From: Sulfolobus sp. E5-1-F | Lineage (GTDB): Archaea; Thermoproteota; Thermoprotei_A; Sulfolobales; Sulfolobaceae | Direction of reading: 5' to 3' | Assembly: GCF_009601705.1 (NCBI RefSeq) | Contig: NZ_CP045687.1 | Span: 718,630-782,629 of the forward strand | DNA length: 64,000 bases | In this document: piece after piece, positions 3,618-62,401 of the stretch | Numbering within the stretch: the first letter of the stretch is position 1 | Layout: each line of letters starts with the position of its first letter | The notes under the pieces: model-generated | What the model was told of the DNA's origin: nothing | The model's input: only the letters and a program-made list of their open reading frames with translations | Database searches by the model: none | Program-made: the position numbers and the translations under genes

Positions 3618-3639
3618 TTGGTTTTTAAGAGTTTTATTC

Positions 3640-4386
3640 ATGGATGTTTTCATTCAAGTGCTTAATGATGTTGTTACTGATTACGCTAAGAGTTTGGTGG
3701 AGAAGTCTAGGCAGGGTAAGAAGTTGTCTGAGCAAGACTACTTATTTCTAATGATGTATTTGAGTAGTAAGAGGATCGATGACTTGAGGCAAGATATGGA
3801 TAAGAAGATTGACGATCTGAAAAGTTACGTTGATAAGAGGTTTGACGATACTAAGGCGGAGATCATGAGCGTCAAAGAAGAAATTAAGGGCTTAAGGGAT
3901 TACACAGAGAGGAAATTCGAGGAATCGAGGGCCTATACGGACAAGAAATTCGAGGAGACTAATAAGAAAATTGAGGATTTGAGAAGCTACGTTGATAAGA
4001 AGTTCGAGGAATTAAGAACATATACTGACAAGAAGTTTGAAGAGACTAATAAGAGGTTCGAAGAGACTGACAAGAAGTTTGAAGATCTTAGAAGTTATGT
4101 TGATAGTAAGTTCGAGGAGTCGAGGGCCTTCACTGAGAAGAAGTTCGAGGAGTCGAGGGCTTATACGGACAAAAAATTCGAGGAGATGAAGTTGTATGTT
4201 GATTCTCAGTTTGTTAGGTTTAAGGAGTATGTTGATAAGCAATTTGAGCATATTGATAACAGGTTTGATGATCTACGTTCTGATATGAATTCGAAATTCG
4301 GTGAGCTAAAGAATGATCTGAATTTGATCATAAAGTTGTTAGTTGGGAAAAGGGGAGGAGAAGGAGAGGAAGAAAGATCATCATGA
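3640..4386 (+). CDS. Coiled-coil protein of 11- and 7-residue modules, copy 1
   Basis: From ATG 3640 the product is 248 residues. After a helical head (about 45 residues) comes a long run of modules that mostly end in KKFEE or KFEDL. Eleven-residue units (RSYVDKKFEEL, RTYTDKKFEET) alternate with seven-residue units (NKRFEET, DKKFEDL), followed by a hydrophobic C-terminal patch (LNLIIKLLV) and a charged tail. Mixed hendecads and heptads predict a long parallel coiled coil. An upstream in-frame GTG at 3568 would add a hydrophobic segment, but that stretch contains the promoter. A paralogue at 60330-61199, near-identical outside the repeat core, has 43 more core residues. The function is unknown; it may resemble DUF1640-type coiled-coil proteins. 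Confidence 0.75.
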   Translation: MDVFIQVLNDVVTDYAKSLVEKSRQGKKLSEQDYLFLMMYLSSKRIDDLRQDMDKKIDDLKSYVDKRFDDTKAEIMSVKEEIKGLRDYTERKFEESRAYTDKKFEETNKKIEDLRSYVDKKFEELRTYTDKKFEETNKRFEETDKKFEDLRSYVDSKFEESRAFTEKKFEESRAYTDKKFEEMKLYVDSQFVRFKEYVDKQFEHIDNRFDDLRSDMNSKFGELKNDLNLIIKLLVGKRGGEGEEERSS

Positions 4387-4629
4387 TCTTTCTCTTTCCT
4401 AGTATCATGATTCAACCTTTATTAGGTAAGTGAAATTTATTGGGGTTAAGGAGAAGAAGTTTTATTGAAATTTCATAAAAACAAACTGTATTCAATTCTC
4501 ACCCTTTGGATTTCGCTAAAGTTGCCGGCAAACCTATATAAGATACTAGGGTTAAGATGAGTGAGAAAATGGTGGATTAAAGCCTTACTTTGTTGAACAT
4601 AATGTCAGCAGTTATCATATTTTCCCTTA

Positions 4630-4677
4630 GTAGTACCGAGTCCACGGTACTACCTAGAAAGTTTTTAACATTCTAGG
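4630..4677 (+). promoter_or_regulatory. Two inverted repeats upstream of the ISC1217-like transposase
   Basis: GTAGTACCG-AGTCCA-CGGTACTAC (4630-4653) is a perfect 9-bp stem with a 6-base loop. CCTAGAA (4653-4659) pairs with TTCTAGG (4671-4677). Both lie between the element's left end and ATG 4695, so they could be transposase- or repressor-binding sites or RNA hairpins limiting read-through expression. They are identical in copy B. Confidence 0.5.
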
Positions 4678-4694
4678 TCATTTCATTAAAATAT

Positions 4695-5801
4695 ATGAAA
4701 AACGAGATCAAGGACTTGGTAAGTAGAGCTAAGGCAGAACTCGTAAACACCATCAATTTCGTAGTAGGAACACTAAGGATGCAAGGACTAACAAAAAAGG
4801 TCGCTATTGCTCTCGCCTTAATCGCATTCATAAGCGATAGAGCTAGCGTGAAGAACATCTCACAAACGTTCAACCTAGATTACAACAACCTACTCAAAGC
4901 GTTAGAGGAAGTGGAAAAAGCGTGGACGAACTACCTAGACAAATTAAGAGAACTAATCAAAGGACCAGTAATAATCATAATCGACGACACGTTCGACCAC
5001 AAGGAATACGCTAGAGCTAGAAACAGAGCGAGCGGACAAGGAAACTACATCATGTGGTGTCAAGCACACAAGAGATTCGAATCCGGAGTCCAATTACTAA
5101 CAATCGCAATCTACGATCTGAACACCAAGAAAGCTTACATGATAGGAGCCTTCCCCTACGCTACTAGAGAAATGTACGAGAGGGGAATGGTGAAGGAGTT
5201 CCAAACCAAGATCCAGATGGCCTCTGCATTAATGAAGCTGCTGAGAGCGAAGTTTCAAGTGATGAGAGTCGTCTTCGACTCTTGGTATTGGTCGAGTGAG
5301 CTCGTAACTGACAAGGTAGTGTCTGAACTGAAGTCCAATAGGAGAGTCCTCAGAGTCAAGTCAATCCAGGGGACCCATGATGAGGTGGAGGGTCACCTTC
5401 ACGTGGGCGATCTACCCCCTGGAAGTTACTTGGTTGACTTGACCCTGAAGGACAAAGTTATTACAGTTAAGTTGTTCGTCGAGGAATATAAAGATTACGG
5501 CAGGAGGAACCTCTATACTACTGACCTATCCCTTAGCAAGGAAGAGGTTGAGGAGACTTGGAGGATAAGGTGGGAGATCGAGAAGTTTCACAGGGACATT
5601 AAGGTTCTAGGTCTTCAAGATACCTCTTTCTTCAAGAGGGTTAGGCTTCAAGGTTATGTCCTCCTCTTCGTGATGCTCGTTAACGCGGTTAGGGAGCTAT
5701 TGGTCTCCCTTAACTTAAGGAGCGTTGAGGAGTTGTTGAGGTTCGTTGAAAGGCATTTAGGAGGGATAGTGGGATTAATGAAAATCTTTAAACTACGTTA
5801 A
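4695..5801 (+). CDS. ISC1217-type DDE transposase, copy A
   Basis: The 368-residue protein has catalytic carboxylates in IIIDDTFDHKEYAR (D97/D98), VVFDSWYWSSEL (D195) and TWRIRWEIEKFHRDIK (E294/E296). The last is the Y/W-R-x-RW-x-IE-x-FH signature of the IS4/IS701-like cut-and-paste superfamily. The N-terminal 80 residues are helical and probably bind the ends. The gene fills almost the whole element and appears intact. The translation is residue-for-residue the same as copy B. Confidence 0.93.
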   Translation: MKNEIKDLVSRAKAELVNTINFVVGTLRMQGLTKKVAIALALIAFISDRASVKNISQTFNLDYNNLLKALEEVEKAWTNYLDKLRELIKGPVIIIIDDTFDHKEYARARNRASGQGNYIMWCQAHKRFESGVQLLTIAIYDLNTKKAYMIGAFPYATREMYERGMVKEFQTKIQMASALMKLLRAKFQVMRVVFDSWYWSSELVTDKVVSELKSNRRVLRVKSIQGTHDEVEGHLHVGDLPPGSYLVDLTLKDKVITVKLFVEEYKDYGRRNLYTTDLSLSKEEVEETWRIRWEIEKFHRDIKVLGLQDTSFFKRVRLQGYVLLFVMLVNAVRELLVSLNLRSVEELLRFVERHLGGIVGLMKIFKLR

Positions 5802-5940: not shown

Positions 5941-8055
5941 TCAGAATCTTATTATTTTCGTAAATATTCTAGAATTGATAAATACCGAAAACAGACTTAA
6001 TATCATTATAATCATTGCTAAATTCATAGACAATATTCCAATTACAGCTAACGGTATGCCAATTCCATTGTATGTTAATGCTAATATTATATTAGATGGA
6101 ATAGCATAACTTAATCTTTTTCTATTTATAATTAATCCTAATAAGGTTCCAATATCGTTACTAACTAGGATAATATCTGCTACATTCTTTGAAATATCTA
6201 CACCATTGCCCATAACAACAGAAACGTCAGCTAAAGCCAATGCGCCAGCATCATTAACACCGTCGCCTATCATTAAACATTTCTTTCCATTTTGCTTAAA
6301 ATTTTCGATTATTTTCACCTTATCTTCTGGTGATAAACTTGAATAATACTCTTGAATATCTAAGTCTTTAGCAAGTTCTTTTACTTTATCCTCTCTATCA
6401 CCACTTAAGATTACGAGCTCTAATCCCTCATTTTTTAACTCTTTTAAATGATCTTTTAGATTAGCTCTTGGAACGTCTGAGATATTGAAAGTTGCTTTTG
6501 GTTTACCATTTATGTAAACTATTATATCACTATTGCTATTCCTAGCCTTTTTTACTTCTATAAAATTATCACCTATCCTCCCTCTAACACCAACTCCGGG
6601 AATTTCTTCAAAATCTCTCACTTCATCTATGATTTTAACTCCTCTTTCTTTAGCATATCTAACTATAGCCTTAGCTATAGGGTGAGATGATAAAGCTTCA
6701 ACAGATGCTGCATAAATTAAACTAATAGAATCACCAATAAACCTTGTAACAATTGGTATACCGTAAGTTAGAGTGCCAGTTTTATCGAAAATAACTATGT
6801 TAATATCTTTAATTTTTTCGTATACGTTTGAATTCTTAATTATCATTCCTTTACGTAACATTTTTTCGTATAATGAAAGAGCCACGGAAGGACTTGAAAA
6901 ACCTATAGCACATGGATAAGCGATAGCCGATACGAGTAGACCATTAATAATACCATATAACCACAAATTTTCGCCTATTAAAATACCATAAATTCCCCAA
7001 GAAATTACGGTAAAGATTGATATAGCTAAAGCCAACGGTACCCATATCCTATCAATAACTTTATCAAAGAAAGTTAATGTAGCAGATTTTTTCTGTTTTG
7101 AGTTATTTACTAGACCAATTATTCTAGATAAGTAACTATTATCGTAATCTTCTGTAATTCTTACTTTTAAATATCCACTTCCATTGGTTGATCCTCCTAT
7201 AACCATATCTCCTTTCCTCTTTAGTATTAACTCGGATTCCCCGGTTATTATTGCCTCACTTACTTCACTCTCACCATCTATTACTATTCCATCTAATGGT
7301 ATTTTCTCTCCTGGCTTAACTATAACTACATCCCCCTTCTTTAGTTTAGTTATTGGAACATCCACACCATTAATTAAATGAGCATATGGAGGTCTTAATT
7401 CAATAATTTTATGGAACGCTTTTTCAACCTTATTATTCAACACTGCTCCCATCCATCCAGCTGATAAGTGTAACGATGTAAGTAGAGATGATATGAACAA
7501 GAAACCAACTAAATTTACATTAAAATTTAAAATCCCTATAATACCTAAAACATATGAGGAGATTCCTGCAACACCGTATAAAACATGTTCATTTAATATT
7601 CCTTTCCTTATAGCATACAATGCCCCTTTATAAATGGGTAACGCTATATAGAATAAGTTTAGAGAAGTCAATAATATTGAGAAGATATAAAATTCGTTAA
7701 AATTAGTTATAATGGGAAAAAGTTTAAATTCAAAGAAAAATAGTAAGCCCAAAAACGTAGTTAAGCTCCAGCTAATTATGGACCTTTTTCTTGAATCTTT
7801 TAATAACTCATTAGAATATTGACTCTTATCTGATACATAATATCCGAGTTTTTCTACCTCTTTTTTAATAGCTTCAGTGCTAACTAACGAAGGATCATAT
7901 TTTACAAACACCTCACCTGATTCTAAGACAACCTTTACCTCCTTGACTCCATTTACTTTCTTTAAACCTTTCTCTATAGTTGATGCACAAAACGCACAAG
8001 CCATACCACCTACGTAAAATCTTTCTATCTTTCTATGATTTTGTTCTTCTGTCAT
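5941..8055 (-). CDS. P1B-type metal-transporting ATPase with YPC in place of CPC
   Basis: The 704-residue membrane pump has an N-terminal heavy-metal-associated domain (MACAFCAST), membrane helices, an actuator domain with ITGES, a phosphorylation site DKTGTLT, an N domain with SSHPIAKA, and MIGDGVNDAGAL. TM7 has TYNG and TM8 has a Met/Ser pair, as in Cu(I) exporters. The ion-binding motif of TM6 reads AIAYPCAIG (Y380-P381-C382) instead of CPC; TGT to TAT is a single transition. The frame opens at TTG 8058, but ATG 8055 is the likelier start. It is divergent from an HxlR-type regulator across a 54-bp region with a palindrome. Metal specificity (copper, silver, mercury or other) is uncertain because of the Tyr. 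Confidence 0.88.
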   Translation of the reverse strand: MTEEQNHRKIERFYVGGMACAFCASTIEKGLKKVNGVKEVKVVLESGEVFVKYDPSLVSTEAIKKEVEKLGYYVSDKSQYSNELLKDSRKRSIISWSLTTFLGLLFFFEFKLFPIITNFNEFYIFSILLTSLNLFYIALPIYKGALYAIRKGILNEHVLYGVAGISSYVLGIIGILNFNVNLVGFLFISSLLTSLHLSAGWMGAVLNNKVEKAFHKIIELRPPYAHLINGVDVPITKLKKGDVVIVKPGEKIPLDGIVIDGESEVSEAIITGESELILKRKGDMVIGGSTNGSGYLKVRITEDYDNSYLSRIIGLVNNSKQKKSATLTFFDKVIDRIWVPLALAISIFTVISWGIYGILIGENLWLYGIINGLLVSAIAYPCAIGFSSPSVALSLYEKMLRKGMIIKNSNVYEKIKDINIVIFDKTGTLTYGIPIVTRFIGDSISLIYAASVEALSSHPIAKAIVRYAKERGVKIIDEVRDFEEIPGVGVRGRIGDNFIEVKKARNSNSDIIVYINGKPKATFNISDVPRANLKDHLKELKNEGLELVILSGDREDKVKELAKDLDIQEYYSSLSPEDKVKIIENFKQNGKKCLMIGDGVNDAGALALADVSVVMGNGVDISKNVADIILVSNDIGTLLGLIINRKRLSYAIPSNIILALTYNGIGIPLAVIGILSMNLAMIIMILSLFSVFINSRIFTKIIRF

Positions 8056-8078
8056 CAACCATATAATAGTTACATATG

Positions 8079-8976: not shown

Positions 8977-10188
8977 CAGCAGTTATAAGATTTTAACGTA
9001 GTTTAAAGATTTTCATTAATCCCACTATCCCTCCTAAATGCCTTTCAACGAACCTCAACAACTCCTCAACGCTCCTTAAGTTAAGGGAGACCAATAGCTC
9101 CCTAACCGCGTTAACGAGCATCACGAAGAGGAGGACATAACCTTGAAGCCTAACCCTCTTGAAGAAAGAGGTATCTTGAAGACCTAGAACCTTAATGTCC
9201 CTGTGAAACTTCTCGATCTCCCACCTTATCCTCCAAGTCTCCTCAACCTCTTCCTTGCTAAGGGATAGGTCAGTAGTATAGAGGTTCCTCCTGCCGTAAT
9301 CTTTATATTCCTCGACGAACAACTTAACTGTAATAACTTTGTCCTTCAGGGTCAAGTCAACCAAGTAACTTCCAGGGGGTAGATCGCCCACGTGAAGGTG
9401 ACCCTCCACCTCATCATGGGTCCCCTGGATTGACTTGACTCTGAGGACTCTCCTATTGGACTTCAGTTCAGACACTACCTTGTCAGTTACGAGCTCACTC
9501 GACCAATACCAAGAGTCGAAGACGACTCTCATCACTTGAAACTTCGCTCTCAGCAGCTTCATTAATGCAGAGGCCATCTGGATCTTGGTTTGGAACTCCT
9601 TCACCATTCCCCTCTCGTACATTTCTCTAGTAGCGTAGGGGAAGGCTCCTATCATGTAAGCTTTCTTGGTGTTCAGATCGTAGATTGCGATTGTTAGTAA
9701 TTGGACTCCGGATTCGAATCTCTTGTGTGCTTGACACCACATGATGTAGTTTCCTTGTCCGCTCGCTCTGTTTCTAGCTCTAGCGTATTCCTTGTGGTCG
9801 AACGTGTCGTCGATTATGATTATTACTGGTCCTTTGATTAGTTCTCTTAATTTGTCTAGGTAGTTCGTCCACGCTTTTTCCACTTCCTCTAACGCTTTGA
9901 GTAGGTTGTTGTAATCTAGGTTGAACGTTTGTGAGATGTTCTTCACGCTAGCTCTATCGCTTATGAATGCGATTAAGGCGAGAGCAATAGCGACCTTTTT
10001 TGTTAGTCCTTGCATCCTTAGTGTTCCTACTACGAAATTGATGGTGTTTACGAGTTCTGCCTTAGCTCTACTTACCAAGTCCTTGATCTCGTTTTTCATA
10101 TATTTTAATGAAATGACCTAGAATGTTAAAAACTTTCTAGGTAGTACCGTGGACTCGGTACTACTAAGGGAAAATATGATAACTGCTG
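8977..10188 (-). mobile_element. ISC1217-like insertion sequence, copy B (1212 bp)
   Basis: It has the same inverted ends and length as copy A, in the opposite orientation. A perfect octamer GTATTTAA flanks it (8969-8976 and 10189-10196). It landed in a nest of small repeats downstream of the metal-resistance genes. Confidence 0.92.
8993..10099 (-). CDS. ISC1217-type DDE transposase, copy B
   Basis: The 368-residue translation is identical to copy A, with the same catalytic Asp, Asp and Glu positions (D97/D98, D195, E294/E296). The hairpins ahead of the ATG are retained. Identity of two copies about 4 kb apart in opposite orientation means they can invert the metal-resistance segment between them by homologous recombination. 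Confidence 0.93.
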   Translation of the reverse strand: MKNEIKDLVSRAKAELVNTINFVVGTLRMQGLTKKVAIALALIAFISDRASVKNISQTFNLDYNNLLKALEEVEKAWTNYLDKLRELIKGPVIIIIDDTFDHKEYARARNRASGQGNYIMWCQAHKRFESGVQLLTIAIYDLNTKKAYMIGAFPYATREMYERGMVKEFQTKIQMASALMKLLRAKFQVMRVVFDSWYWSSELVTDKVVSELKSNRRVLRVKSIQGTHDEVEGHLHVGDLPPGSYLVDLTLKDKVITVKLFVEEYKDYGRRNLYTTDLSLSKEEVEETWRIRWEIEKFHRDIKVLGLQDTSFFKRVRLQGYVLLFVMLVNAVRELLVSLNLRSVEELLRFVERHLGGIVGLMKIFKLR

Positions 10189-10215
10189 GTATTTAATTTT
10201 TCTCTTTTCTCTCTA

Positions 10216-11058
10216 GAGTGTGGTCAACAATTTCATGCATTTGAAATATTTGCATTTATTATCACTCTCCTATCCACTAAATACACTTGAGTGTAAAGAA
10301 TGTTGTAGATTAGGAAGAAGGTAGAGAGCCAACTCGTAATCGTTAACCTATTTGAACTCCAAGGGAAATGAAAGTCCATAGAGGAGAGCCTATGCTTCAA
10401 TGTCCTAAACCCCTGCTCAGCGTAATCCCTCCTACCAAACGTAACCCACTTGTGCCCAACATTAAACCAGTCAAATGCATTATAAGCTGGTAAACCGTCA
10501 TGCAAGTAAATCACTCGATCAACCCTCTTAAAGTACTTACTCGCAATTTCCTCAATCCCCCTCATGTTAACTAGGACAATTAACACGTGAAAACCACTCC
10601 TCAAGCTAGTGACCATGAAGAAAGGAATAGCCTTTGTCACAACATCCCTAACGATCCAAACGTAATAGTAATTACCCCTAACGCAAACAACCTTAGTCTC
10701 GTCAATAGCGTAAAGACTCAAGGACACAACGTACTTAACGCTACCAAGCCTCTTGTAATAGTAAAGCAAGGTGGAATGTGGTAACGTAGTCCTCCAAGAG
10801 GATAAGCCAGCTAGATAACTCGCTAGGCTTAACGCGACCTCCTCCCTAACGTGAAATCTTGGCTTAAGATTAATATACTCCATTAGGATTAAAATAACTT
10901 GGGTGAGCACGGGGATGTTCCATCTGTTCATCATGTGCTCACCAATAAAAATCCCGTGCTCACCCAAAAAGGTATTACGCTAAATAAAAGGATTTATTTC
11001 TATAATAGAAGCAACTTATACGATTAATTTCAAATTAATTAAATTGTTGACCACACTC
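10216..11058 (-). mobile_element. IS6-like insertion sequence, intact (843 bp)
   Basis: The element is bounded by GAGTGTGGTCAACAATTT and its inverted copy and flanked by a perfect 8-bp direct repeat TCTCTCTA (10208-10215 and 11059-11066). The 8-bp duplication is typical of the IS6 family. The transposase gene is intact. Confidence 0.93.
10233..10967 (-). CDS. IS6-family DDE transposase, second intact copy
   Basis: This 244-residue protein is nearly identical to the product of 2758-3495, with the same DDE motifs (YAIDETKVV, YLHDGLPAYN, AEQGFRTLKHRL) and the same inverted repeat across the first codons. It lacks one residue of the other copy near position 85. A few substitutions (for example GLHVL to GFHVL, ASRYF to ASKYF) show the two are not the most recent pair. 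Confidence 0.9.
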   Translation of the reverse strand: MGEHGIFIGEHMMNRWNIPVLTQVILILMEYINLKPRFHVREEVALSLASYLAGLSSWRTTLPHSTLLYYYKRLGSVKYVVSLSLYAIDETKVVCVRGNYYYVWIVRDVVTKAIPFFMVTSLRSGFHVLIVLVNMRGIEEIASKYFKRVDRVIYLHDGLPAYNAFDWFNVGHKWVTFGRRDYAEQGFRTLKHRLSSMDFHFPWSSNRLTITSWLSTFFLIYNILYTQVYLVDRRVIINANISNA

Positions 11059-48984: not shown

Positions 48985-50496
48985 CTAACTATCAATAAAA
49001 CATTTCTCAATGAATTCGATAGCTGACTCTATTGCATTTTGTATATAAGTGGACTTATCATAAGGAGGATTATTAGAAGTTGTAGCTCTACAATCGAGTA
49101 TATCACTAGGTCCTCTACAATTTAGTATATCACTAGGTTTTGCAATTTTCAGTTCATATACGCTCTTCTCGCCTTCTTCACTACTTACCCAATTTAACTT
49201 ATCGTAAAAATCGGAGGAGTAAAAGTAAGTTAGAAGTACTATGTTGTCGTTAATGACTTTAAAGGATATATAGGACTTCCTTCTATCTTCTTTATTGTTA
49301 CCATCAATTACATTATACCCAGTAGTAATGGTACCCCTTCCACGTCTGTTATCCCGGGAACTTCCTCTTCTAGGTAATCCCAAAATGTCTGTATGGAGAT
49401 TTCCTCCGTGACACTTCTGACAGTCTTGATTAAAACTTCCCCATATTACTTTTTTCCAATTCGCTTTCTGTACACTGCTCCAAATTTTCTCTAAGCATAG
49501 GAATCGGTTTTGAGAATTACAACTTAAGATTTTATAACCAAGGCTTTTAGCTGATGCTACTTTTGTGTATGATGTTGGGGTGCCATTAGGAGGTATTAAA
49601 TAACCATGTGTTCCAGCCTCTCTTATAATCTCTTCCAACTTCATGTTAGCACATTCAGGGTTCTGGCATCTAAATAATTCTATTACATTTTTCTTTAGAT
49701 TCTCCGATATATAATTACTGTAAATATTCCTAATTATAATACTACCTAATCCTCTATCATTTCCAGAACCGACTCCACCGAAGATAAACCCAAAAATGAG
49801 AGGTATTAAGTCCTTCTCAACTTCTCCTCCATCTTTTCTTGAGTAAACTATAAGTTTTAGAGTAAAGGTCTCATTAACGAAGAAGGTATCGTTTATAATT
49901 CTCTTAATGTAGTTTTGAAGCTCTACACTTTCATCGAGTATTAATTCCCTATTTTTGGTAATTTTGTATATTATATCAGATTCCCCTTGTTTGCTCCTCG
50001 GTTGTATATATAAAAAGTATCTAGTTTTATACGCACTCTTAATTTTTTCTATTACCTTCTTTACGTCGTTACTACAATTAGCTAAACATTTATTTAATAA
50101 TGTTTCGGCTTCAGTGTTCTCAGCTACTTTACGTAGTATTTTCCTTAGAGTGATCTCCGATCTGAGCATATTTGGTAATATTTCCTTAAAGAACGAAATC
50201 ACATCATCAACTACTTTACGGTCATAAGGAGATGGTAAAGACTCTGGAATAACTCTAATAATATAATTAGATGCGACGTTTTGTGAACCTAAGACCTTTC
50301 CAACCTCTTCATCTAAACTTTCGTAGTCTTTGCTACCATCATTTATTAGAACTCTATACCACCACCTCCATAAAGCTTTGAACTCAGTTGGTCTAGGAGG
50401 TTCTATATACTGGGAATCTACATCATAAGGGCTACCATTATATCCTCCCATATGAGGAGATATAAGCTCAATATCAAATTCAGCAACTTTTTCCAT
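48985..50496 (-). CDS. Second Cmr1-like RAMP protein, long form
   Basis: The 503-residue protein starts with a RAMP fold segment (DIELISPHMGGYNG) and has the Cmr1 signature RPTEFKALWRWWYRVL (residues 35-50), plus a Gly-rich loop GGVGSGNDRGLGS (240-252). The in-operon Cmr1 (53354) has the same landmarks in 270 residues. This long form adds a C-terminal half with four cysteines, C277-x4-C282 and C359-x2-C362, which could bind zinc. It is transcribed away from the operon, with a decayed IS1 remnant between. Whether it joins the Cmr complex or acts alone is open. Confidence 0.85.
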   Translation of the reverse strand: MEKVAEFDIELISPHMGGYNGSPYDVDSQYIEPPRPTEFKALWRWWYRVLINDGSKDYESLDEEVGKVLGSQNVASNYIIRVIPESLPSPYDRKVVDDVISFFKEILPNMLRSEITLRKILRKVAENTEAETLLNKCLANCSNDVKKVIEKIKSAYKTRYFLYIQPRSKQGESDIIYKITKNRELILDESVELQNYIKRIINDTFFVNETFTLKLIVYSRKDGGEVEKDLIPLIFGFIFGGVGSGNDRGLGSIIIRNIYSNYISENLKKNVIELFRCQNPECANMKLEEIIREAGTHGYLIPPNGTPTSYTKVASAKSLGYKILSCNSQNRFLCLEKIWSSVQKANWKKVIWGSFNQDCQKCHGGNLHTDILGLPRRGSSRDNRRGRGTITTGYNVIDGNNKEDRRKSYISFKVINDNIVLLTYFYSSDFYDKLNWVSSEEGEKSVYELKIAKPSDILNCRGPSDILDCRATTSNNPPYDKSTYIQNAIESAIEFIEKCFIDS

Positions 50497-51424: not shown

Positions 51425-52048
51425 ATGAGTAGTGGAGGATCAAGCAATAATACACAAGAAGAGTGGGAGGCTCATCATTTATTTGTACCAGTTGTAAAAA
51501 AGGAGAAGTATGAAGATCTTGATAGGGAGTATGAGAATTCCAGTATTAATATTGGACAACCAACAGATCCTAAAGTTTCAGATGTAATATCTAGTAGGGG
51601 AAGGCCGATGATCGCTAATATTCTCACACTTGTAGGTTTTGCTACGGCCAGTGAACAAAGCTACACATTGGTATTTACTGGAGATCCTTGTGACTATGTG
51701 AGGGGAGTGATTCTACCATTAAGAGATGGAGATAAGGTAAAACTTGATAAGTCAAAATATTCAGCAATTATAATTACAATAACAAATTCAAATTATGATA
51801 AACTATATATTTTGAACCGAGAAAATAGTTTATTAGATAAATTGAGAGATAAAAGGTTAATTCTAATTTTATCTAAAAATCATGAGTTAAAAGAAACTAG
51901 AATAGGTAAAGTGGATAGAGATAACTTATCTAACTTTCTCAAGAAGTTTTATGGAGGTAATACAAGTGTCAATCTGAATGATCTTACAAACAACAATAAG
52001 GAACTGGAAAAGATGGCTAAACCGTTCACTTATACTTATATTAGCTAG
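51425..52048 (+). CDS. cmr7: Cmr7, crenarchaeal subunit of the type III-B complex
   Basis: The 207-residue protein opens SSGGSSNNTQEEWEAHHLF and has a beta-rich core (GFATASEQSYTLVFTGDP, RGVILPLRDGDKVKLDKSKYSAIIITI), as I remember for Cmr7 of Sulfolobus. Cmr7 is an accessory dimer decorating the Cmr complex, found only in Sulfolobales. It heads the operon, 17 bases before cmr4, in the order known from S. solfataricus. Identification rests on both sequence pattern and position. Confidence 0.8.
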   Translation: MSSGGSSNNTQEEWEAHHLFVPVVKKEKYEDLDREYENSSINIGQPTDPKVSDVISSRGRPMIANILTLVGFATASEQSYTLVFTGDPCDYVRGVILPLRDGDKVKLDKSKYSAIIITITNSNYDKLYILNRENSLLDKLRDKRLILILSKNHELKETRIGKVDRDNLSNFLKKFYGGNTSVNLNDLTNNNKELEKMAKPFTYTYIS

Positions 52049-52065
52049 CAAAAAATTGCCGAGTA

Positions 52066-52887
52066 GTGAAAATAATGAATAATTATTATTCAAAGTCATT
52101 TCCTTTTATAATCAAAGCTATTACGAATATTCATGTTGGTAGTGGTGGTTCTATAGAAAGTGGAGTTGACCTTCCTTTTCAAAGGGATGAACTAGGATTT
52201 CCCACTATTTACGCATCCAGTTTGAAGGGTTCATTTAAATCACACCTCCTAAAAGTTATTAGTGATAACTGGTTAGTTAAGAAAGGATTGGGTTTTGAGG
52301 AGGGTGATGAAGAGGAAGAAGCTTCAAATATTGGGTTTCTTGACGCACTTCTTCTAGGCATTCCTGCTAGGTATATAGGTGATGGTTCAGATAGGTATTG
52401 GGTTTACGTTACAGCTGAGTCGATAAAAGAGAAGTTATGTAATTATCTTAAAGCGTTAAGCGAAATTTCGGATGTGACAGAAGAAGATGTGTGCAAAAAT
52501 TCAACTACTAATAATAATGCGACGCCAGTTATTTTAAATGAGGAATACGTAACTGATTACTCGAAAATTGTCTTCGAGGGCTATGAAATTTACGTCTTGA
52601 AGGATCTTATTGCAAAGGCTATAATCGAGAAATCTATGATTAAGGCGAGGAGAATAAAGATTGATAGGACAACGAAAACTGTAGTTAGAGGAGGTTTGTG
52701 GACTGAGGAATACGCTCCATCAAATACCCTCTTCTTCTCAGCTTTTTTAGTTAAGCCGGATAGACCCTCTAATCATTTATCCTATATGATATATAAAAAA
52801 GTGAATTACTTAATTATTGGTGGAAAGGAAACAATAGGAAAAGGTATTGGTGAGATAATATGGATTCCAAGGACAGTAATAAGTTAG
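52066..52887 (+). CDS. cmr4: Cmr4, backbone RAMP nuclease of the type III-B complex
   Basis: The 273-residue Cas7-like RAMP has NIHVGSGGSIESGVDLPFQRDE (residues 21-42), in which D35 matches the catalytic Asp of Cmr4. That residue cuts target RNA at 6-base intervals. It also has TIYASSLKGSFKSHLL and the Gly-rich GGKETIGKGIGEI near the end. The start is GTG 52066 or ATG 52075. It overlaps cmr5 by 28 bases. Several copies of this subunit line the crRNA. Confidence 0.92.
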   Translation: MKIMNNYYSKSFPFIIKAITNIHVGSGGSIESGVDLPFQRDELGFPTIYASSLKGSFKSHLLKVISDNWLVKKGLGFEEGDEEEEASNIGFLDALLLGIPARYIGDGSDRYWVYVTAESIKEKLCNYLKALSEISDVTEEDVCKNSTTNNNATPVILNEEYVTDYSKIVFEGYEIYVLKDLIAKAIIEKSMIKARRIKIDRTTKTVVRGGLWTEEYAPSNTLFFSAFLVKPDRPSNHLSYMIYKKVNYLIIGGKETIGKGIGEIIWIPRTVIS

Positions 52888-53351
52888 CTATCGAAGTAAT
52901 GAACATTATCTTAAGTAACGTAAACAATCAAGCGATCTTACAAGGATTTAGAGGTAGAGCAAGGTCTCTTATCGATTCCTTATTAGAGGATTTTTTCAGT
53001 ACTTTTGGATTTATTATTGCGAAAGCGGAAATACATTCAGAGGAAAGTCGTGAAATACTCCTTAAGCTAAATTTCTTAGATATGGAAAGGGTTAAAATGG
53101 CATTAGAAGATGTTAATAATTTAGGAAAAGAGAAGGCGGGATATCTTTTATACTTGATCGTCATTTTATACTTCTTAACTAAAACTGAAATAATAAGTGA
53201 AAAGGATATCGTGAACATGGCAATTTGTAACAAAACCACTATGGATATTTACGAGAGAATTTATGAGAATAGTGTAGTTATACAGAACTTAATAAGGAGA
53301 TATTTAATAGCTGTGAAGAACCTAGCCACGGGTTTGATCGGGGAGGAATAA
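52860..53351 (+). CDS. cmr5: Cmr5, small helical subunit
   Basis: The 163-residue helical protein has ILQGFRGRARSLIDSLLEDFFSTFGFIIAK near residues 21-50, the pattern of Cmr5, which stabilises the complex on the opposite face from Cmr4. It starts within the 3' end of cmr4 in another frame (28-base overlap) and stops two bases before cmr1. Coupled translation keeps the subunits in ratio. Confidence 0.85.
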   Translation: MDSKDSNKLAIEVMNIILSNVNNQAILQGFRGRARSLIDSLLEDFFSTFGFIIAKAEIHSEESREILLKLNFLDMERVKMALEDVNNLGKEKAGYLLYLIVILYFLTKTEIISEKDIVNMAICNKTTMDIYERIYENSVVIQNLIRRYLIAVKNLATGLIGEE

Positions 53352-53353
53352 AC

Positions 53354-54166
53354 ATGATATTACTTTCTGCTGACCTCTCTCTTTTTTGCCCAGAAACTGG
53401 AGGATATAGTAGGAGACCACAAAACTACTTCTACAAACAGTTCGTTAGACCTACGGAAATAAAGGGACTGTGGAGATGGTGGAATAGAGTACTATATAAT
53501 GGCGTAAGCTACGTTAAAAACGAGAAGATGTTATATCCCTATAATCAAATAGATGAAGAGTTCGGAGAAGTTTTAGGAGGGGTTGAAAATAAGTCCTTGT
53601 TCACAATACGAGTAGAGGAGAAACAAGAGGAAGTATCGCCTTTAGAAGTTAAGTTTGACTTAAACGTTTACGTAGATGAGGATAGAATGAGAGACGAAAA
53701 TAAAGTGAGATTTGCAATTCTCTCCCTTTATGGGAGAAGAACTAGAATAGGAATAGGGAGTATTCAGATCAAGAATGTGAACTGTTACAGCGAACTCTGC
53801 TATGAAGAAGTTGCAAAAAAGATTTCTGATCTTCAACAAAGTTTGATAAATGCTGATGATATTGGAAAAGTTGTAAAAGAAATAGGAGAGGTTTCAAATT
53901 TAGTGGAATTTAAATCCTCGAGAAGTAGTAAATACCCTCTATGTTATTTCCTAGACTATGAGAACTTTCAAGTTTCTTTACAGAATTTCGTCTCTGATGA
54001 TAACAAGAAATTATTGGCTAGTACTTATTATAACATACTTTCTAAAGAATTTGAGTGTAATGAAGAGGAGAGTTCATCGCGTTATTTAATGAACAAAATT
54101 TATCCCTTTAGAATAAAAATATTAAGAAATAGAATAGTTATGTATTGTCTTTCTTACACGAGGTGA
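53354..54166 (+). CDS. cmr1: Cmr1, in-operon short form
   Basis: The 270-residue RAMP has DLSLFCPETGGYS, RPTEIKGLWRWWNRVL (residues 37-52) and a Gly-rich loop RRTRIGIGSIQIKN. Cmr1 caps the crRNA 3' end together with Cmr6. It is shorter than most Cmr1 proteins (about 340 in Pyrococcus) and half the length of the second Cmr1-like protein at 48985. The spacing is two bases after cmr5 and seven before cmr6. Confidence 0.88.
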   Translation: MILLSADLSLFCPETGGYSRRPQNYFYKQFVRPTEIKGLWRWWNRVLYNGVSYVKNEKMLYPYNQIDEEFGEVLGGVENKSLFTIRVEEKQEEVSPLEVKFDLNVYVDEDRMRDENKVRFAILSLYGRRTRIGIGSIQIKNVNCYSELCYEEVAKKISDLQQSLINADDIGKVVKEIGEVSNLVEFKSSRSSKYPLCYFLDYENFQVSLQNFVSDDNKKLLASTYYNILSKEFECNEEESSSRYLMNKIYPFRIKILRNRIVMYCLSYTR

Positions 54167-54173
54167 AGCTATA

Positions 54174-54917
54174 ATGTTACAAGAGATAATAGGGAAATTA
54201 AATTCTCAAAATACCCGATATAACCTTTACTCTTATTATATATTTAAGAGTATAGAGTATAACCTTTATGGGGTTATAAATAGGGAGCAAAAGGTAAAAT
54301 TAGCTAAGGAATTCGGAAAATTTTCTATCTTGAATGGTGACACTATTGGAAAAATAGAGGAAATGTTTGAGAAAATATACCTAGCCTTGAAAAGTAGTGG
54401 TTATTCGATAATAGACGTTAAGATCGTTACAAGTGCTAGGACTCTTATTGGTGTTTCGGGTAACTTTTTGCGTAATATATTTGAAATTGGTCTTAACTTT
54501 GATTGGGTATATAACGTCCCTTACATTCCTGGTTCAGAGATAAAAGGTGTTATTAGAAGTAGTATTGATGATGAGGAACTGGAAAGGGAAATATTTGGTT
54601 CTGAAGAGGAAGGGATAAGTCAAGTTGGATTTACTGATGCTTATCCAATAGAGCCAGTAGGTGAAGAGTTGCTAGTCCCAGATGTTATGACACCCCATTA
54701 TGTTGGTGCAAGAGATGAAACTGAGGTAAAACCTAGGCCAATTATCTTCTTAACTATTCGTGAAGGTGTAGTGTTTAGGTTTCTCATATATTATAGACAA
54801 CAGGAATTAGGTAGGGAGATTTGCAGAAGGTTACGCATTGCAGTATTGCAAGGTTTAGGTGCTAGGACCTCTACTGGTTACTCATATTTTCAGTTAAGGG
54901 AAATATCGTTTAGATGA
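54174..54917 (+). CDS. cmr6: Cmr6, terminal RAMP subunit
   Basis: The 247-residue RAMP has NIFEIGLNFDWVYNVPYIPGSEIKGVIRS (residues 103-131), FTDAYPIEP, then VPDVMTPHYVGARDE, and GLGARTSTGYSYF at the end, all typical of Cmr6. It sits at the 3' end of the crRNA in the complex. It is followed after 13 bases by cmr2. Motifs are intact and length is normal. Confidence 0.92.
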   Translation: MLQEIIGKLNSQNTRYNLYSYYIFKSIEYNLYGVINREQKVKLAKEFGKFSILNGDTIGKIEEMFEKIYLALKSSGYSIIDVKIVTSARTLIGVSGNFLRNIFEIGLNFDWVYNVPYIPGSEIKGVIRSSIDDEELEREIFGSEEEGISQVGFTDAYPIEPVGEELLVPDVMTPHYVGARDETEVKPRPIIFLTIREGVVFRFLIYYRQQELGREICRRLRIAVLQGLGARTSTGYSYFQLREISFR

Positions 54918-54930
54918 GAGGTGAAAGTAA

Positions 54931-57900
54931 ATGGTTCGCAGGAGTAGTAGAACACAAAGTAGTGGAAGGTTACCTACATTATCTGAACTATTAGAACATA
55001 AGTTATCTGCACTATTTCACGATCCCCCTAATAAAGCATGGATGGTAGCTAAGAAAAAAGTGAAGGGAATGTCACATTCGAAATTTGGGATTAGATTGTT
55101 TAACGTAGTTACTTCTGATATGTTTCTATTTGAAAAAGGTAAAGTCGATAAGGCTGACAAATTTGCGTCAACTATGGACAGATATTTAGGGAATATAGCT
55201 TATAGGGGTGGAAGATGTTTTCCAACATCAAACATAGAGTTAAAAAATATTATCTATCCTTCTTATAGAATTGATATAGATGGCGATAGGGAAAAAGATC
55301 TGCTTGAGATATTGAAAGAATTTCATTGTTTAAGTTCTTACATAAGTAAATTAATTAGTCCTAACGACTTATTAACTTTTTACCAACTAGTTTATCTTAT
55401 TTATGAATTATTTTGGATAGATAAAGGCTTTCAAAACTCCCCAGCAGATACTAGAACTCCAACTCATTCAATATTTGATCACGTTTACGCAACTGCATCA
55501 GCGATAAACTGGATTGATAGTGAGAACTACCTTTTCTTAGTAGGAATTGACGTTGTTGGTATTAATGATTTTATAAGTAAAGGTAGGAAAACAAGAGACT
55601 TCTGGGTTTCAAGCTACTTGGTTTCAGCGTTGTTGTGGCATGTAATTTTACACTTTGTTGAAGAGTATGGACCGGACGTAGTTATTTTTCCTTCTTTAAG
55701 ATTTAACCAATTTTATGCCTACTACATGATAGATAAGTTGCAGAGAATTAGCGGAAACGATCCAGAAAGAGTTACAGTACTGAATTATGTTAAAGGGTTA
55801 GTTAAAAAGTACGTTTTTAACAATGATGATTCTTTTGAAGAGGATAAGTTAGGGATCCCACCTTATCCTATAATTCCAGGCAGGATTACAATGATTTTGC
55901 CGGATCTAAAATTCGTTAATGGTAAGACTGACGCGATTAATGATGAAATGGATATTGAAACGGATATTGAAAATGAATTTGAAAGTGGATGGAATATTCT
56001 GATAAATAACATTTGTAAAGTAGCAAAAGAGAAAACGGATGATCCTTTCTGGAGAATAGTTTTCACTACAATAACTACCTATGGGGACATTGTGAGAACC
56101 ACACCTATAAGAATAAGAGTTAAGGTAGTTAAAGAAGTAAAAAATAGAGTCAGTCTGAGTAATAATTATTTAAATTGGAATGTTTATGATAATTTATATC
56201 GGGAATTAGTGGAAAAATTTAAGAAATCAAAACTAGTTAAAATATCACCGGAAAGTAGTTTAGATGTAGAGAAGATTATTAGTAAAAACAAAAATCTTTC
56301 CGGAAGAGGTTTCGAGTATTGTACCTCATGTAACTTATTGCCAGCTGTTTTCATAATGCCTAAAAGTAAAGAGGAGGTTAGTGATATAAGTGAAGAAGAT
56401 TATGAAACTTTGCAAAAAGAGATTTCACCCGGTGAAAGATTATGCCCATGGTGCTTAATAAAGAGAGCGATCGCAACTGAACCCAGAGTTCTAAAAGTAC
56501 TTCTGACTCGAAGAGATCTAGATGATAGCGAAATAAAGAAATTAAGAAAGAATATATTCATTCCTTCTACAAGTCATATATCCTCAATTCCACTATTTGA
56601 GGAATTGATCAGAAGGGGAAATGAGATCTGCAATAATAATGATAGAATTTCTGAGGAGTTATGTAATAAGGGTGGAAAACCAGAATTAATTTCCTTGTGG
56701 AAATGGTTTAATGAAGCTGTAGATAAATCTAAAATTAAATTACAAGTAAACCCAGAGGAACTGTGGTTTTCTGAAAATCCAGAGTTTAGGAGATTATTGA
56801 GAGAGAAATATTCAGTATCTACACCATCACCTTATTACGCTTTAGTTAGGGCTGACAGTGATTATTTAGGAGATCTACTGGAAGGAAAACTCACTCCTTA
56901 TTTAGCTGGTATTATTGATTCAGATTATTTAAAACTGAACAATGAAAAAGAAGACGTAATAAGAGAATTTCTTAAAGAATACTTAATGAATTCAGCAGCG
57001 ACTTTTAATCAGAAATTACAAAGTTATATAGAGATGTTAATTTTGGAAGCAGAAGACTCTTCTTCATGTGGACAAGAGCCCAGGGCTAATTTATTTAAAT
57101 GTCTTAGTTCTAATTGCTTTAGTAAACTATCATCCGACGATGCTAAAATAAGTGATGCTATAAAAGAATCAATTAAATACTTTGCAGAAATTCTAAATAA
57201 CAAAAGGATAATATTATCACCGGCTTTTCATGTCTCAATTTCAGCAGCTTTGAATAGGGCGTTGCTTTATGAAATATATTTGGTAAATAAACATAAAGGC
57301 TTTGTTATTTACGCAGGGGGAGATGACTTACTAGCCATGTTACCAGTATCTGAAGCTTTAGATTTCGTGATTGAGAGTAGAAAAGCTTTTGCAGGTATAA
57401 GAAATTCTGAAAACGATGAGGATTCAGTTATTACTCCACATCAACAAGGTTTCATGAAAATCAATAACGCAGTTTTCACTGCCCCTGCAATTATAGGAAG
57501 AACATACTCCATAGTCCTTTCACATTATGCTGATCCATTACAATTAGTTATCAGAAAGTCTTACGAATTAGTGGAAGACGAAAAGGAAATGATAATGACG
57601 ATGGATAAAAATGGACAGGCTGTTCTGAAGAAAGACTTAACTTTTATTTACTATAACAACTCTCTGGCAATTATTCCTAATTCCTTTGAGAGGCCTATTC
57701 AAAATGTTGGTGAGGTATTGGAATTCATGAAGAAATTAAGGAACGAAATAAAAGATGAGAAGGGCAAGATAAGTAAAAGTCTCCTTTACGACTATGAGGA
57801 TTTCAAAGAGTTAATTGGAAAACTAACTGATGAAGGAAAGGAGCATTCTCTAAATTACATAAAACATATTATAAATTCTAATTCCAGGATAAAAGGGGAA

Positions 57901-58059
57901 ACAAGTGAAATAGTTAATGATATCGAAAAACTTTTAGATTACCTTACCTTTGAGATTAAGAAACTTGAAGGAAATGAATCCAATAAAGGAGGTAAAACAA
58001 CTGTTTTAGATGAGGTAATTAAAGGGGTTAGACTATTGCTTAGTGGTGAGAAGTCGTGA
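54931..58059 (+). CDS. cmr2: Cmr2/Cas10, cyclic-oligoadenylate synthase and HD nuclease subunit
   Basis: The 1042-residue protein has the HD motif LSALFHDPPNKAW (H30-D31), a zinc site C464-x2-C467 and C505-x2-C508, and the palm motif VIYAGGDDLLAML (GGDD 796-799). With GGDD intact it should make cyclic oligoadenylate from ATP upon target RNA binding, activating CARF proteins, and its HD domain may cut single-stranded DNA. A second HSIFDH segment lies near residue 187. Its stop overlaps the cmr3 start. Confidence 0.95.
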   Translation: MVRRSSRTQSSGRLPTLSELLEHKLSALFHDPPNKAWMVAKKKVKGMSHSKFGIRLFNVVTSDMFLFEKGKVDKADKFASTMDRYLGNIAYRGGRCFPTSNIELKNIIYPSYRIDIDGDREKDLLEILKEFHCLSSYISKLISPNDLLTFYQLVYLIYELFWIDKGFQNSPADTRTPTHSIFDHVYATASAINWIDSENYLFLVGIDVVGINDFISKGRKTRDFWVSSYLVSALLWHVILHFVEEYGPDVVIFPSLRFNQFYAYYMIDKLQRISGNDPERVTVLNYVKGLVKKYVFNNDDSFEEDKLGIPPYPIIPGRITMILPDLKFVNGKTDAINDEMDIETDIENEFESGWNILINNICKVAKEKTDDPFWRIVFTTITTYGDIVRTTPIRIRVKVVKEVKNRVSLSNNYLNWNVYDNLYRELVEKFKKSKLVKISPESSLDVEKIISKNKNLSGRGFEYCTSCNLLPAVFIMPKSKEEVSDISEEDYETLQKEISPGERLCPWCLIKRAIATEPRVLKVLLTRRDLDDSEIKKLRKNIFIPSTSHISSIPLFEELIRRGNEICNNNDRISEELCNKGGKPELISLWKWFNEAVDKSKIKLQVNPEELWFSENPEFRRLLREKYSVSTPSPYYALVRADSDYLGDLLEGKLTPYLAGIIDSDYLKLNNEKEDVIREFLKEYLMNSAATFNQKLQSYIEMLILEAEDSSSCGQEPRANLFKCLSSNCFSKLSSDDAKISDAIKESIKYFAEILNNKRIILSPAFHVSISAALNRALLYEIYLVNKHKGFVIYAGGDDLLAMLPVSEALDFVIESRKAFAGIRNSENDEDSVITPHQQGFMKINNAVFTAPAIIGRTYSIVLSHYADPLQLVIRKSYELVEDEKEMIMTMDKNGQAVLKKDLTFIYYNNSLAIIPNSFERPIQNVGEVLEFMKKLRNEIKDEKGKISKSLLYDYEDFKELIGKLTDEGKEHSLNYIKHIINSNSRIKGETSEIVNDIEKLLDYLTFEIKKLEGNESNKGGKTTVLDEVIKGVRLLLSGEKS

Positions 58060-58988
58060 TAATGATTAAGATAAGAATGATCGAACCAATAATTGTTAGA
58101 GGTTCTGGTGAGTTTGGGCCATATGTGATAGGAAGCAGAAACTTTGCTGAATCGCTATTCATTCCAAGACCATCAACTATTGCAGGTATGTTGGGGAGTA
58201 TATTTTTTCACGAGAACGATAATGGAACGTGGCGTGAAAAATTAAAGAAAATATTTGATAATCAAGGTATCCAAGGATTAATAGGGCCTTTAATTGTAAC
58301 AGATAAGCTACTCTACCCATTTAGATTTGGCGACTCCCTAGCACTTGTGGAGAATAAAAAGGAATTGTTAGAAGTAGTTAACAGTATAATTCAAGAGACT
58401 CACGATTATTGGGAGCCTGAACTTTACTCGCTCTTTAGAAAATACTCTATAGAGAGATACTTTAAATCGATAACTAAGGTTGGAATTGCTTTAGATAGAG
58501 ATAAGAAAATAACAAAGGAGAGTTACTTATATTACGAAAAATATGTTATGCCTAAAGAAGGTTTGTATTTTAGTGTTATAGTCCTAGGGGATGATAAAAA
58601 CTTGTCATCATTAGATGGGAGAATTGTGAATTTAGGTGGTGAAAGAAGGGTAATTCAACTGCAAGTCACTTCACCTACAGTTTACGCTGATAAGGTTAAC
58701 GATATAAATTACGTTGAAAACAAATGCGCTAGTTACGATTATTACTTAACCTTAACTCCATTAATCCTTAAAGAAAATGTTAATCCGGAGTTAATTTTAA
58801 CTGGTAAGGTTGAAAAAATAAGCTTAGGTTATGATATTTCTCACGGAAAAAGGAAAGAAATGGTAAATACTATACTTGAGGGTAGTATTGTGAAGAAGGA
58901 TGTCGTATTGTCAATGATAGATACAAACTACTCCTTCTTAGGTTATAACACCGTACTGCCGTTATTAACAGTTTCAGATGATCCGTGA
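58056..58988 (+). CDS. cmr3: Cmr3, Cas5-like subunit
   Basis: The 310-residue RAMP has IRMIEPIIVRGSGEFGP near the start, ESLFIPRPSTIAGMLGSIFF, and LGYDISHGKRKEM in the last third, as in Cmr3. Cmr3 holds the 5' tag of the crRNA and contacts Cmr2. The start GTG 58056 overlaps the cmr2 stop by four bases; ATG 58062 is an alternative. It ends the operon. Confidence 0.9.
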   Translation: MIMIKIRMIEPIIVRGSGEFGPYVIGSRNFAESLFIPRPSTIAGMLGSIFFHENDNGTWREKLKKIFDNQGIQGLIGPLIVTDKLLYPFRFGDSLALVENKKELLEVVNSIIQETHDYWEPELYSLFRKYSIERYFKSITKVGIALDRDKKITKESYLYYEKYVMPKEGLYFSVIVLGDDKNLSSLDGRIVNLGGERRVIQLQVTSPTVYADKVNDINYVENKCASYDYYLTLTPLILKENVNPELILTGKVEKISLGYDISHGKRKEMVNTILEGSIVKKDVVLSMIDTNYSFLGYNTVLPLLTVSDDP

Positions 58989-60119: not shown

Positions 60120-60329
60120 ACTGTAGCTTCGTTGAAAATGAGTCAAAAAGAGATTTCTTGGAAGATAGAGAAAGCCCACCAAACATAAGATCGTAAACAT
60201 CCCCCAGCGATCACAAATTAGTCTCAAGAATAGTCAAATTCTAGTCTTATATGTTAGGAGTTGGTATTGTTTGAGTTATTACTTTCGCTCGTCTCTATAC
60301 TTATATATTGGTTTTTAAGAGTTTTATTC

Positions 60330-61199
60330 ATGGATGTTTTCATTCAAGTGCTTAATGATGTTGTTACTGATTACGCTAAGAGTTTGGTGGAGAAGTCTAG
60401 GCAGGGTAAGAAGTTGTCTGAGCAAGACTACTTATTTCTAATGATGTATTTGAGTAGTAAGAGGATCGATGACTTGAGGCAAGATATGGATAAGAAGCTC
60501 GACGATCTGAAAAGTTACGTTGATAAGAGGTTTGACGATACTAAGGCGGAGATCACGAGCGTCAAAGAAGAAATTAAGGGCTTAAGGGATTACACGGAGA
60601 GGAAATTCGAGGAATCGAGGGCCTATACGGACAAGAAATTCGAGGAGACTAATAAGAAAATTGAGGACTTGAGAAGCTACGTGGACAAGAAGTTCGAGGA
60701 ATTAAGAACATATACTGACAAGAAGTTTGAAGAGACTAATAAGAAAGTTGAGGACTTGAGAAGCTACGTGGACAAGAAGTTTGAAGAGACTAATAAGAGG
60801 TTCGAGGAGACTAACAAGAAGTTCGAAGATCTTAAAAGTTATGTTGATACTAAATTCGAGGAGTCGAGAGCTTATACGGATAAAAAATTTGAGGAGACTA
60901 ATAAGAGGTTCGAGGAAATGGACAAGAAGTTTGAGGACCTCAGAAGCTACGTGGACAAGAAGTTTGAGGAGTCGAGGGTTTATACGGATAAGAAGTTTGA
61001 GGAGATGAAGTTGTATGTTGATTCTCAGTTTGTTAGGTTTAAGGAGTATGTTGATAAGCAATTTGAGCATATTGATAATAGGTTTGATGATCTACGTTCT
61101 GATATGAATTCGAAATTCGGTGAGCTAAAGAATGATCTGAACTTGATCATAAAGTTATTAGTTGGGAAAAGGGGAGGAGAGGAAGAGAGATCATCATGA
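60330..61199 (+). CDS. Coiled-coil protein of 11- and 7-residue modules, copy 2
   Basis: The 289-residue product from ATG 60330 matches copy 1 (3640-4386) almost exactly in its head and its end. Between RTYTDKKFEET and KLYVDSQFVRF it has ten modules (90 residues) against five (47 residues) in copy 1. The difference is two 11-residue and three 7-residue units. A TATA box TTATATA at 60301 gives a leaderless start; the upstream open frame from TTG 60261 covers the promoter. The duplicated block begins with AGCGATCACAAATTAGTCTC at about 60203. Function unknown. Confidence 0.75.
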   Translation: MDVFIQVLNDVVTDYAKSLVEKSRQGKKLSEQDYLFLMMYLSSKRIDDLRQDMDKKLDDLKSYVDKRFDDTKAEITSVKEEIKGLRDYTERKFEESRAYTDKKFEETNKKIEDLRSYVDKKFEELRTYTDKKFEETNKKVEDLRSYVDKKFEETNKRFEETNKKFEDLKSYVDTKFEESRAYTDKKFEETNKRFEEMDKKFEDLRSYVDKKFEESRVYTDKKFEEMKLYVDSQFVRFKEYVDKQFEHIDNRFDDLRSDMNSKFGELKNDLNLIIKLLVGKRGGEEERSS

Positions 61200-61567: not shown

Positions 61568-62401
61568 ATGACTAAGGTTGTACATTTTTCTGCAGTAGGG
61601 ACTTCTTTACTAAGGAATGCCTCTAGTGATGAAGATATTAGGAATGAGATAAAAAAACTAAATATCGAGGGATGGGAATATTTAAAATTTGACGATCCCA
61701 AACAAGATAAAATTACAGCTAATTCCTCCGAACTCAAATCGAAACTTCTCCTTTTTATTAATAAAAAAGGAAATAGCGCATCTGCTGAGATCCAAAGCAT
61801 TGAACAAGCAGTTGAAAAATTTGGGCATAAGCCTGATGATACTCTTATACTTCTGTACTCTACAAATTCCGCTAATGCTCAACTCGCTGCTGAAACTATA
61901 CAAGAATATTTTAATAGTAAGAAATACGAAACTCAAAATATAGTAGTCCAATCTATCAATAGTGAAGATGAGTTCGATAAAGGTCTGGCTGATTTATTGG
62001 ATAAGGTAGCCTCTAAAATGATTGAGTGGAAAAATCGCGGTAGTGATATTTACGTAAACGTTACAACTGGATTTAAGGCTGAGAGTATATTCTTAGCCTT
62101 GTCAGCATTTATGATAGGTGGTAAAGTATATTATAGGTATGAGACGTTTAATGATATTATTTTACTTCCTTCGCCACCAATTATACCAGATCAAAACATT
62201 GTTAACAAACTGTCCCAGATATTAAACAGTAGTACTTATATAATATCGAAGAGTAATAGATATAATCTATCCGATGAAGATATAGAAAACTTTACAAAAA
62301 ACGGAATACTAAAGGAGAAAGATAAAGATGCATACGAAATTCGAGAGTGGGTTAAGAAATTCATAGACTTTGCAAATAAGATAAAAAAGGAGACTCATTA
62401 A
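61568..62401 (+). CDS. CARF-domain protein, probable Crn1-type ring nuclease
   Basis: The 277-residue protein has an N-terminal CARF domain (about 1-200) and a C-terminal winged-helix part. VVHFSAVGTSLLRNASS includes S13, and DIYVNVTTGFKAESI includes K170. These match the catalytic Ser and Lys of Crn1 of S. solfataricus (S11 and K168) with an offset of two. Crn1 degrades cyclic tetra-adenylate and so ends type III signalling. No HEPN RNase motif (R-x4-6-H) is present, so it is not a Csx1-type effector. It lies downstream of the cmr operon with its own promoter (CTTAAATAT about 25 bases before ATG). Confidence 0.82.
   Translation: MTKVVHFSAVGTSLLRNASSDEDIRNEIKKLNIEGWEYLKFDDPKQDKITANSSELKSKLLLFINKKGNSASAEIQSIEQAVEKFGHKPDDTLILLYSTNSANAQLAAETIQEYFNSKKYETQNIVVQSINSEDEFDKGLADLLDKVASKMIEWKNRGSDIYVNVTTGFKAESIFLALSAFMIGGKVYYRYETFNDIILLPSPPIIPDQNIVNKLSQILNSSTYIISKSNRYNLSDEDIENFTKNGILKEKDKDAYEIREWVKKFIDFANKIKKETH

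Follow-up and report, generated by a model that had tools for sequence, protein, structure and literature searches.

A duplicated head-rod protein of Sulfolobus and its archaeal family, with rods that differ in length by 7- and 11-residue modules

Introduction

Variation of coiled-coil length by whole units is already known from Mycoplasma DUF16 and from chicken BG proteins. Strains of Mycoplasma pneumoniae, for example, differ in RepMP1/DUF16 by whole 21-nt (7-residue) repeats, for which slipped-strand mispairing and unequal crossover have been invoked (PMC3472980). Transitions from one periodicity to another are present in many natural coiled coils, and in coiled-coil theory a change of 4 residues, a stutter, corresponds to the swap of a heptad and a hendecad (PMC4786415). 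Among archaeal proteins, those of the PD-(D/E)XK type DUF1626/PDDEXK_10 with DUF3782 are often mis-annotated as tropomyosin or microtubule-binding proteins (PMC1913061).

The window analysed here, a stretch of 64,000 nucleotides from Sulfolobus sp. E5-1-F (NZ_CP045687.1, positions 718,630 to 782,629) to which all coordinates refer unless otherwise indicated, holds two copies of a gene, A and B, that belong to a multi-copy family of Thermoproteota. Its members combine an N-terminal, predicted helical hairpin (motif GKKLS) with one long predicted helix, the rod, whose length differs between A and B.

The two copies and their family

Copy A (3640-4386, coding to 4383; 248 aa) and copy B (60330-61199, coding to 61196; 289 aa, an open reading frame with homologues) both lie on the + strand with 56.7 kb between their starts. 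They match at 380 of the first 387 nt and at 179 of 182 nt near the 3′ end (98 % DNA identity at the ends), in agreement with the preliminary description of copies about 57 kb apart that are nearly identical at both ends. The head of B, predicted to form the hairpin, comprises 52 codons (60330-60485, + strand) whose DNA is the same as in A (dS = dN = 0). Identity also reaches about 120 nt upstream, into the promoter (60205-60329 for B, 3515-3639 for A, both + strand), and about 20 nt beyond the stop. At A, the 5′ limit of this common region abuts an ISC774 (IS6-type) element. ISC774 is present as a broken copy at 2400-2690 and as intact copies at 2758-3495 and 10233-10967; furthermore, two ISC1217 elements with the same 368-aa transposase flank a copper-ATPase-like gene at 5941-8058 (IS regions 2400-5801 and 8993-10967).

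A TATA-like box, CTTATATA, is located about 25-30 nt 5′ of the ATG in A, B (near 60299-60306) and a homologue from another genome (G015), and copy C, a third and more diverged paralogue of about 180 residues elsewhere in the same 2.54-Mb genome, has a similar box, TTTATATA, at the same place. Because of the box common to A, B and G015, B is likely to start at the ATG at 60330, though the open frame continues upstream. A start farther upstream, with a transmembrane helix, was ruled out, as that frame spans the TATA-like promoter and homologues begin at or near the same methionine.

Besides the genus, where its presence is patchy, the family is found in further genera of Sulfolobaceae level and more widely in the phylum. 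A head profile built from 16 sequences (copy A included), which matches both window copies at E of about 1e-28, detects it in 43 of the 299 genomes of the phylum, a single genome carrying as many as 11 copies, and the head sequence alone finds it in 18 of the 147 genomes of the order. In every member, a head of some 50 residues containing G-K-K-L-S precedes a rod whose length varies widely. The proteins in the set range from 90 to 290 residues, and frames are intact in nearly all homologues. Pfam contains no model for the family, head searches of Pfam and PDB returned no convincing match, PDB searches by sequence and by fold (Foldseek on the prediction for copy A) gave nothing significant, and no published name was found in the literature searched.

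Matches that were obtained concern the coil. Those in PHROGs and Pfam were dismissed as generic coils, as were candidate relatives on mobile replicons: viral contigs hold no relative, on plasmids the matches are YadA-like coils, and the one phage match covers the coil only. The sll1863 stress-response family (NF052504; cut-off 35 bits) scores 41.6 bits with B and 32.9 bits with A, in the coil region only, which probably reflects coiled-coil composition. Apolipoprotein A1/A4/E (39.3 and 34.1 bits) and Spectrin (29.4 and 19.5 bits) stay under their Pfam gathering thresholds of 90 and 29.9 bits, respectively. Mycoplasma DUF16 (PF01519) is absent among the Pfam matches of A and B, and one distant homologue matches it weakly, below the cut-off and in the coil only. 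Neither copy has a Pfam nuclease match, and the rod extends to about 20 residues from the C-terminus, which leaves no C-terminal PD-(D/E)XK domain.

Modules of the two rods

Segmentation by the hydrophobic seam divides the rod of A (3796-4317, + strand) into 16 blocks, 11-25-11-7-11-11-7-7-11-11-11-11-11-7-11-11, and that of B (60486-61136, + strand) into 21, 11-25-11-7-11-11-7-11-7-7-11-11-7-7-11-11-11-11-7-11-11, the block of 25 being 14 + 11. The rod of B is longer by 43 residues or five modules (2 × 11 + 3 × 7), and the C-tail of A has 2 extra residues compared to B. Module alignment thereby bears out, for the rod, the earlier reading of 43 residues as two hendecads plus three heptads. In the stretch that differs in length (60717-61019 of B, + strand; 101 vs 58 residues by module and mosaic alignment), the difference of five modules likewise stands, with the counts changing from 5 and 10 to 6 (A) and 11 (B). 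The 43 residues are a net sum of at least three changes in B relative to A, namely +36 (7,7,11,11), +18 (7,11) and -11. Taken alone, their fit to 7a+11b is weak evidence and proves little, because half of the integers from 1 to 60 can be written in this way; the 7/11 steps are established by aligning A and B module by module and by the test across the family, not by arithmetic.

Tandem Repeats Finder (TRF) detects periods of 21, 33, 54, 87 and 108 bp in the rod DNA (7, 11, 18, 29 and 36 codons; 21, 33 and 108 bp in A and 21, 54, 87 and 108 bp in B), together with short G/A-rich tracts that repeat every 8 or 11 bp in the same rods. Two 36-residue blocks of B agree at only 83 of 108 nt, as compared to 98 % at the gene ends, and middle pieces of A and B match the other copy at only 84-94 % and at shifted positions. 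As B's extra blocks go back further than the split of A from B, it seems that each copy has lost or exchanged its own subset of ancient modules. Two simpler accounts could be excluded: a single 129-bp insertion, as the mosaic alignment requires several segments, and a fresh tandem duplication in B, as the repeat blocks are 77-91 % DNA-identical and hence older than the 2 % divergence of the A and B ends.

The 7/11 rule across the family

Among 92 homologues, the 24 strongest lags of rod self-identity are all of the form 7a+11b, led by 18, 7, 11, 25, 36 and 43. The lag contrast of 0.070 exceeds that of shuffled rods, whether the shuffling keeps composition (at most 0.003) or the hydrophobic pattern (at most 0.021), and the rods are therefore truly repetitive rather than merely endowed with a periodic core. 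Indels were counted in 24 independent, non-overlapping close pairs (identity of at least 75 %), where 49 of 56 rod indels equal 7a+11b against 27 % expected locally (P about 3e-21); in these pairwise alignments of repeats single borders are uncertain, and pairs from the same clade are not fully independent. When indel sizes are shifted by 1 or 2 residues, 7 at most fit. Of the other seven, six measure 4 residues (11-7) and one measures 3 residues, so that the register-breaking length changes in other genomes, which the preliminary description had named as the counter-evidence to look for, come down to this sole misfit. An apparent extra 4 residues, read by eye as one rod step of 11+4, is also found in copy C. 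The description of mixed heptad/hendecad coils as uncommon, by contrast, was overstated, as many coils with transitions have been reported (PMC4786415) and mixing is the norm in this phylum-wide family.

The DNA offers a route by which such steps could arise. Exact direct repeats of at least 12 nt in the family's rod DNA are spaced by 7a+11b codons in 256 of 256 cases, and 97 % of those at 9 nt show this spacing. Due to this layout, gain or loss mediated by repeats stays in frame and in register, and selection for phase at each event is therefore unnecessary, yet selection probably shaped the module pattern originally. A homologue in genome G020 contains a 96-bp unit (32 codons = 3 × 7 + 11) in 5.4 copies with 100 % match, by its sequence the length-change process caught fresh. 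Genome G204 has two paralogues, about 5 kb from each other, whose aligned parts are 99 % identical although their lengths differ by 97 residues. This pair, the A-B pair and a third from genome G210, all with differing rods, show zero synonymous change in their heads, which suggests recent duplication or conversion of the head; dS values of the rods may be too high wherever the alignment pairs modules that do not correspond.

Predicted structure and constraint

For copy A, AlphaFold2 predicts a helix at residues 2-24, a turn at the GKK motif and a helix at 31-237, with a mean pLDDT of 84 and a pTM of 0.31 in a run on this copy alone, without homologues and as a monomer. The hydrophobic period is 3.62 in A and 3.61 in B, with a median of 3.59 in 67 rods (10th-90th percentile 3.55-3.63). 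As this lies near the relaxed α-helix at about 3.63 residues per turn (PMC4786415), the rods are expected to be nearly straight; a Fourier estimate of the 7:11 balance per protein is too coarse for testing selection on straightness. In most pairs dN/dS amounts to 0.03-0.17, and one very close pair reaches 0.66 on four changes. These ratios show purifying selection on the protein sequence; rod length, by contrast, varies freely.

Genomic neighbourhood

A type III-B CRISPR (Cmr) cluster (cmr7, cmr4, cmr1, cmr6, cas10/cmr2 and cmr3; 51425-58988) and a ring-nuclease-like gene (61568-62401; PF09651 well above cut-off, NF040951 at 221 bits vs a cut-off of 600) flank copy B, the latter 370 bp 3′ of it. 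A further RAMP gene occupies 48985-50496 on the strand opposite to the Cmr cluster. Paralogue C (L106 3087-6751; G000:C1 at about 991-995 kb) resides about 1.6 kb upstream of crn1 and near cas4. The neighbours of 94 family loci (138 in total), however, include no recurrent partner gene, and no fusion points to one, for which reason we do not call the head-rod protein a CRISPR component: the commonest neighbour, ATPase_2, accounts for 5 of 138, and CRISPR matches are single cases. Archaeal ATPase_2 genes stand beside or between head-rod genes in several genomes (L107, L108, L113, L039 and L042), possibly by chance in shared variable regions.

Two other kinds of coiled-coil protein were noted. 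In several at Sulfolobaceae level (L017-L019, L133-L135, L150 and L151), a head resembling that of the family is combined with a rod built in multiples of 11 and with a C-terminal domain that is nuclease-like but goes unrecognised by Pfam. Others (L012 and L016), likewise with rods of multiples of 11, differ at the N-terminus and carry a hydrophobic segment at the C-terminus that is likely a membrane anchor.

Discussion

Rod length would shift by slippage or unequal recombination inside the gene, and probably also by exchange between paralogues; with all usable DNA repeats at 7a+11b codons, every change would preserve both frame and coil register. The preliminary description had attributed in-phase change to selection or to recombination constrained by the repeat: the phase and the recombination are upheld, a single event is not, and selection at each event is not needed. 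A contribution of this latter kind, with indels of every size arising and those that throw the coiled-coil core out of phase being lost, is conceivable but unlikely as the main cause. The rods are indeed under purifying selection and register-breaking indels are almost absent, but repeats of this layout permit nearly only in-phase events in the first place; selection may still purge the rare others, and the layout itself presumably mirrors past selection.

As to function, the protein could be a stand-alone relative of the head-rod-nuclease proteins, with a role in defence linked to DNA or in the biology of mobile elements, and might pair with them via the common head. The hhalign link of the head to the N-terminus of L017-L019 and L133-L135 (probability 94 %, E about 1e-7) speaks for such kinship, as do, for defence, the CRISPR-related genes around B and C and the patchy, multi-copy distribution. 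We nevertheless regard this as rather improbable: the aligned part covers just 33 columns at 21 % identity, the C-terminal domain alone finds no Pfam nuclease match and its D...EVK motif was read by eye, neighbours are not conserved, and the homologue in G015 lacks CRISPR genes among its neighbours over the 6 kb that were read. The likeness of the heads is a lead to DNA-linked functions at the level of sequence. Less probable still is a selfish single-gene unit without cellular role, spread by IS activity or conversion. The abrupt end of A-B identity just beyond the gene, adjoining ISC774 at A, and the patchy presence in the genus would fit, but a dN/dS well under 1 and frames that are intact in almost every homologue argue against it, and a non-exhaustive search recognised no terminal repeats or target duplications.

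We thus favour, with reasonable though by no means full confidence, a soluble head-rod protein whose rod of 7/11 modules changes length via repeat slippage or recombination and which most likely serves as a spacer or scaffold. The N-terminal hairpin (motif about I..K...GKKLS..E...L) would fold back into a continuous helix of about 200 residues that probably oligomerises as a coiled coil. Alternating 7- and 11-residue modules, at an average of about 3.6 residues per turn, would render this rod nearly straight; the conserved head (and C-end) would bind, and the rod would set a tunable reach, a role that is a guess from shape. A bolder extension, which we consider a long shot, is that Thermoproteota hold sets of near-straight rods written in a two-letter length alphabet (7, 11), with the paralogues of one genome as graded rulers or spacers, sequence constrained, length diversified and the 7/11 balance kept because the rod stays untwisted.

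In any case, the family represents a natural case of protein length evolving in quanta while sequence is constrained, with an indel rule that can be tested genome by genome in a multi-copy archaeal family, and protein designers can draw on it as a natural collection of thermophile rods that mix 7 and 11 at many different lengths. The family further illustrates that in-phase length change is not in itself a sign of selection, because a DNA repeat layout may permit almost nothing else.

Comparison with known systems

As far as the sources searched extend, the two-size module alphabet, the phylum-wide reach and the enforcement of phase by DNA repeat layout alone are new. Mycoplasma DUF16 is likewise a multi-paralogue family with a common proximal region and a variable coiled coil, and its paralogues recombine; it is, however, confined to heptads as reported and to one bacterium (PMC3472980), whereas modules of 7 and 11 residues are used here, in an archaeal phylum and without sequence kinship. 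The predicted coiled-coil cytoplasmic tail of chicken BG also varies by 7-residue units, but these are separate exons of a eukaryotic transmembrane protein (PMC4046983). The DUF1626/PDDEXK_10 proteins with DUF3782 from Sulfolobales and Pyrobaculum share repetitive coiled coils with the window protein but carry a nuclease domain that it does not have (PMC1913061), and control coils sampled from archaeal nuclease-type proteins repeat at multiples either of 11 or of 7 and do not show the combination 18/25/29/36/43. The rods also resemble 18/5 and hendecad-containing coils in general, where a stutter shifts the heptad period to 11/3 or 18/5, close to that of the relaxed helix (PMC4786415); in those coils the mixture is as a rule a fixed property of a single protein, whereas in the head-rod family the number of modules is evolutionarily fluid.
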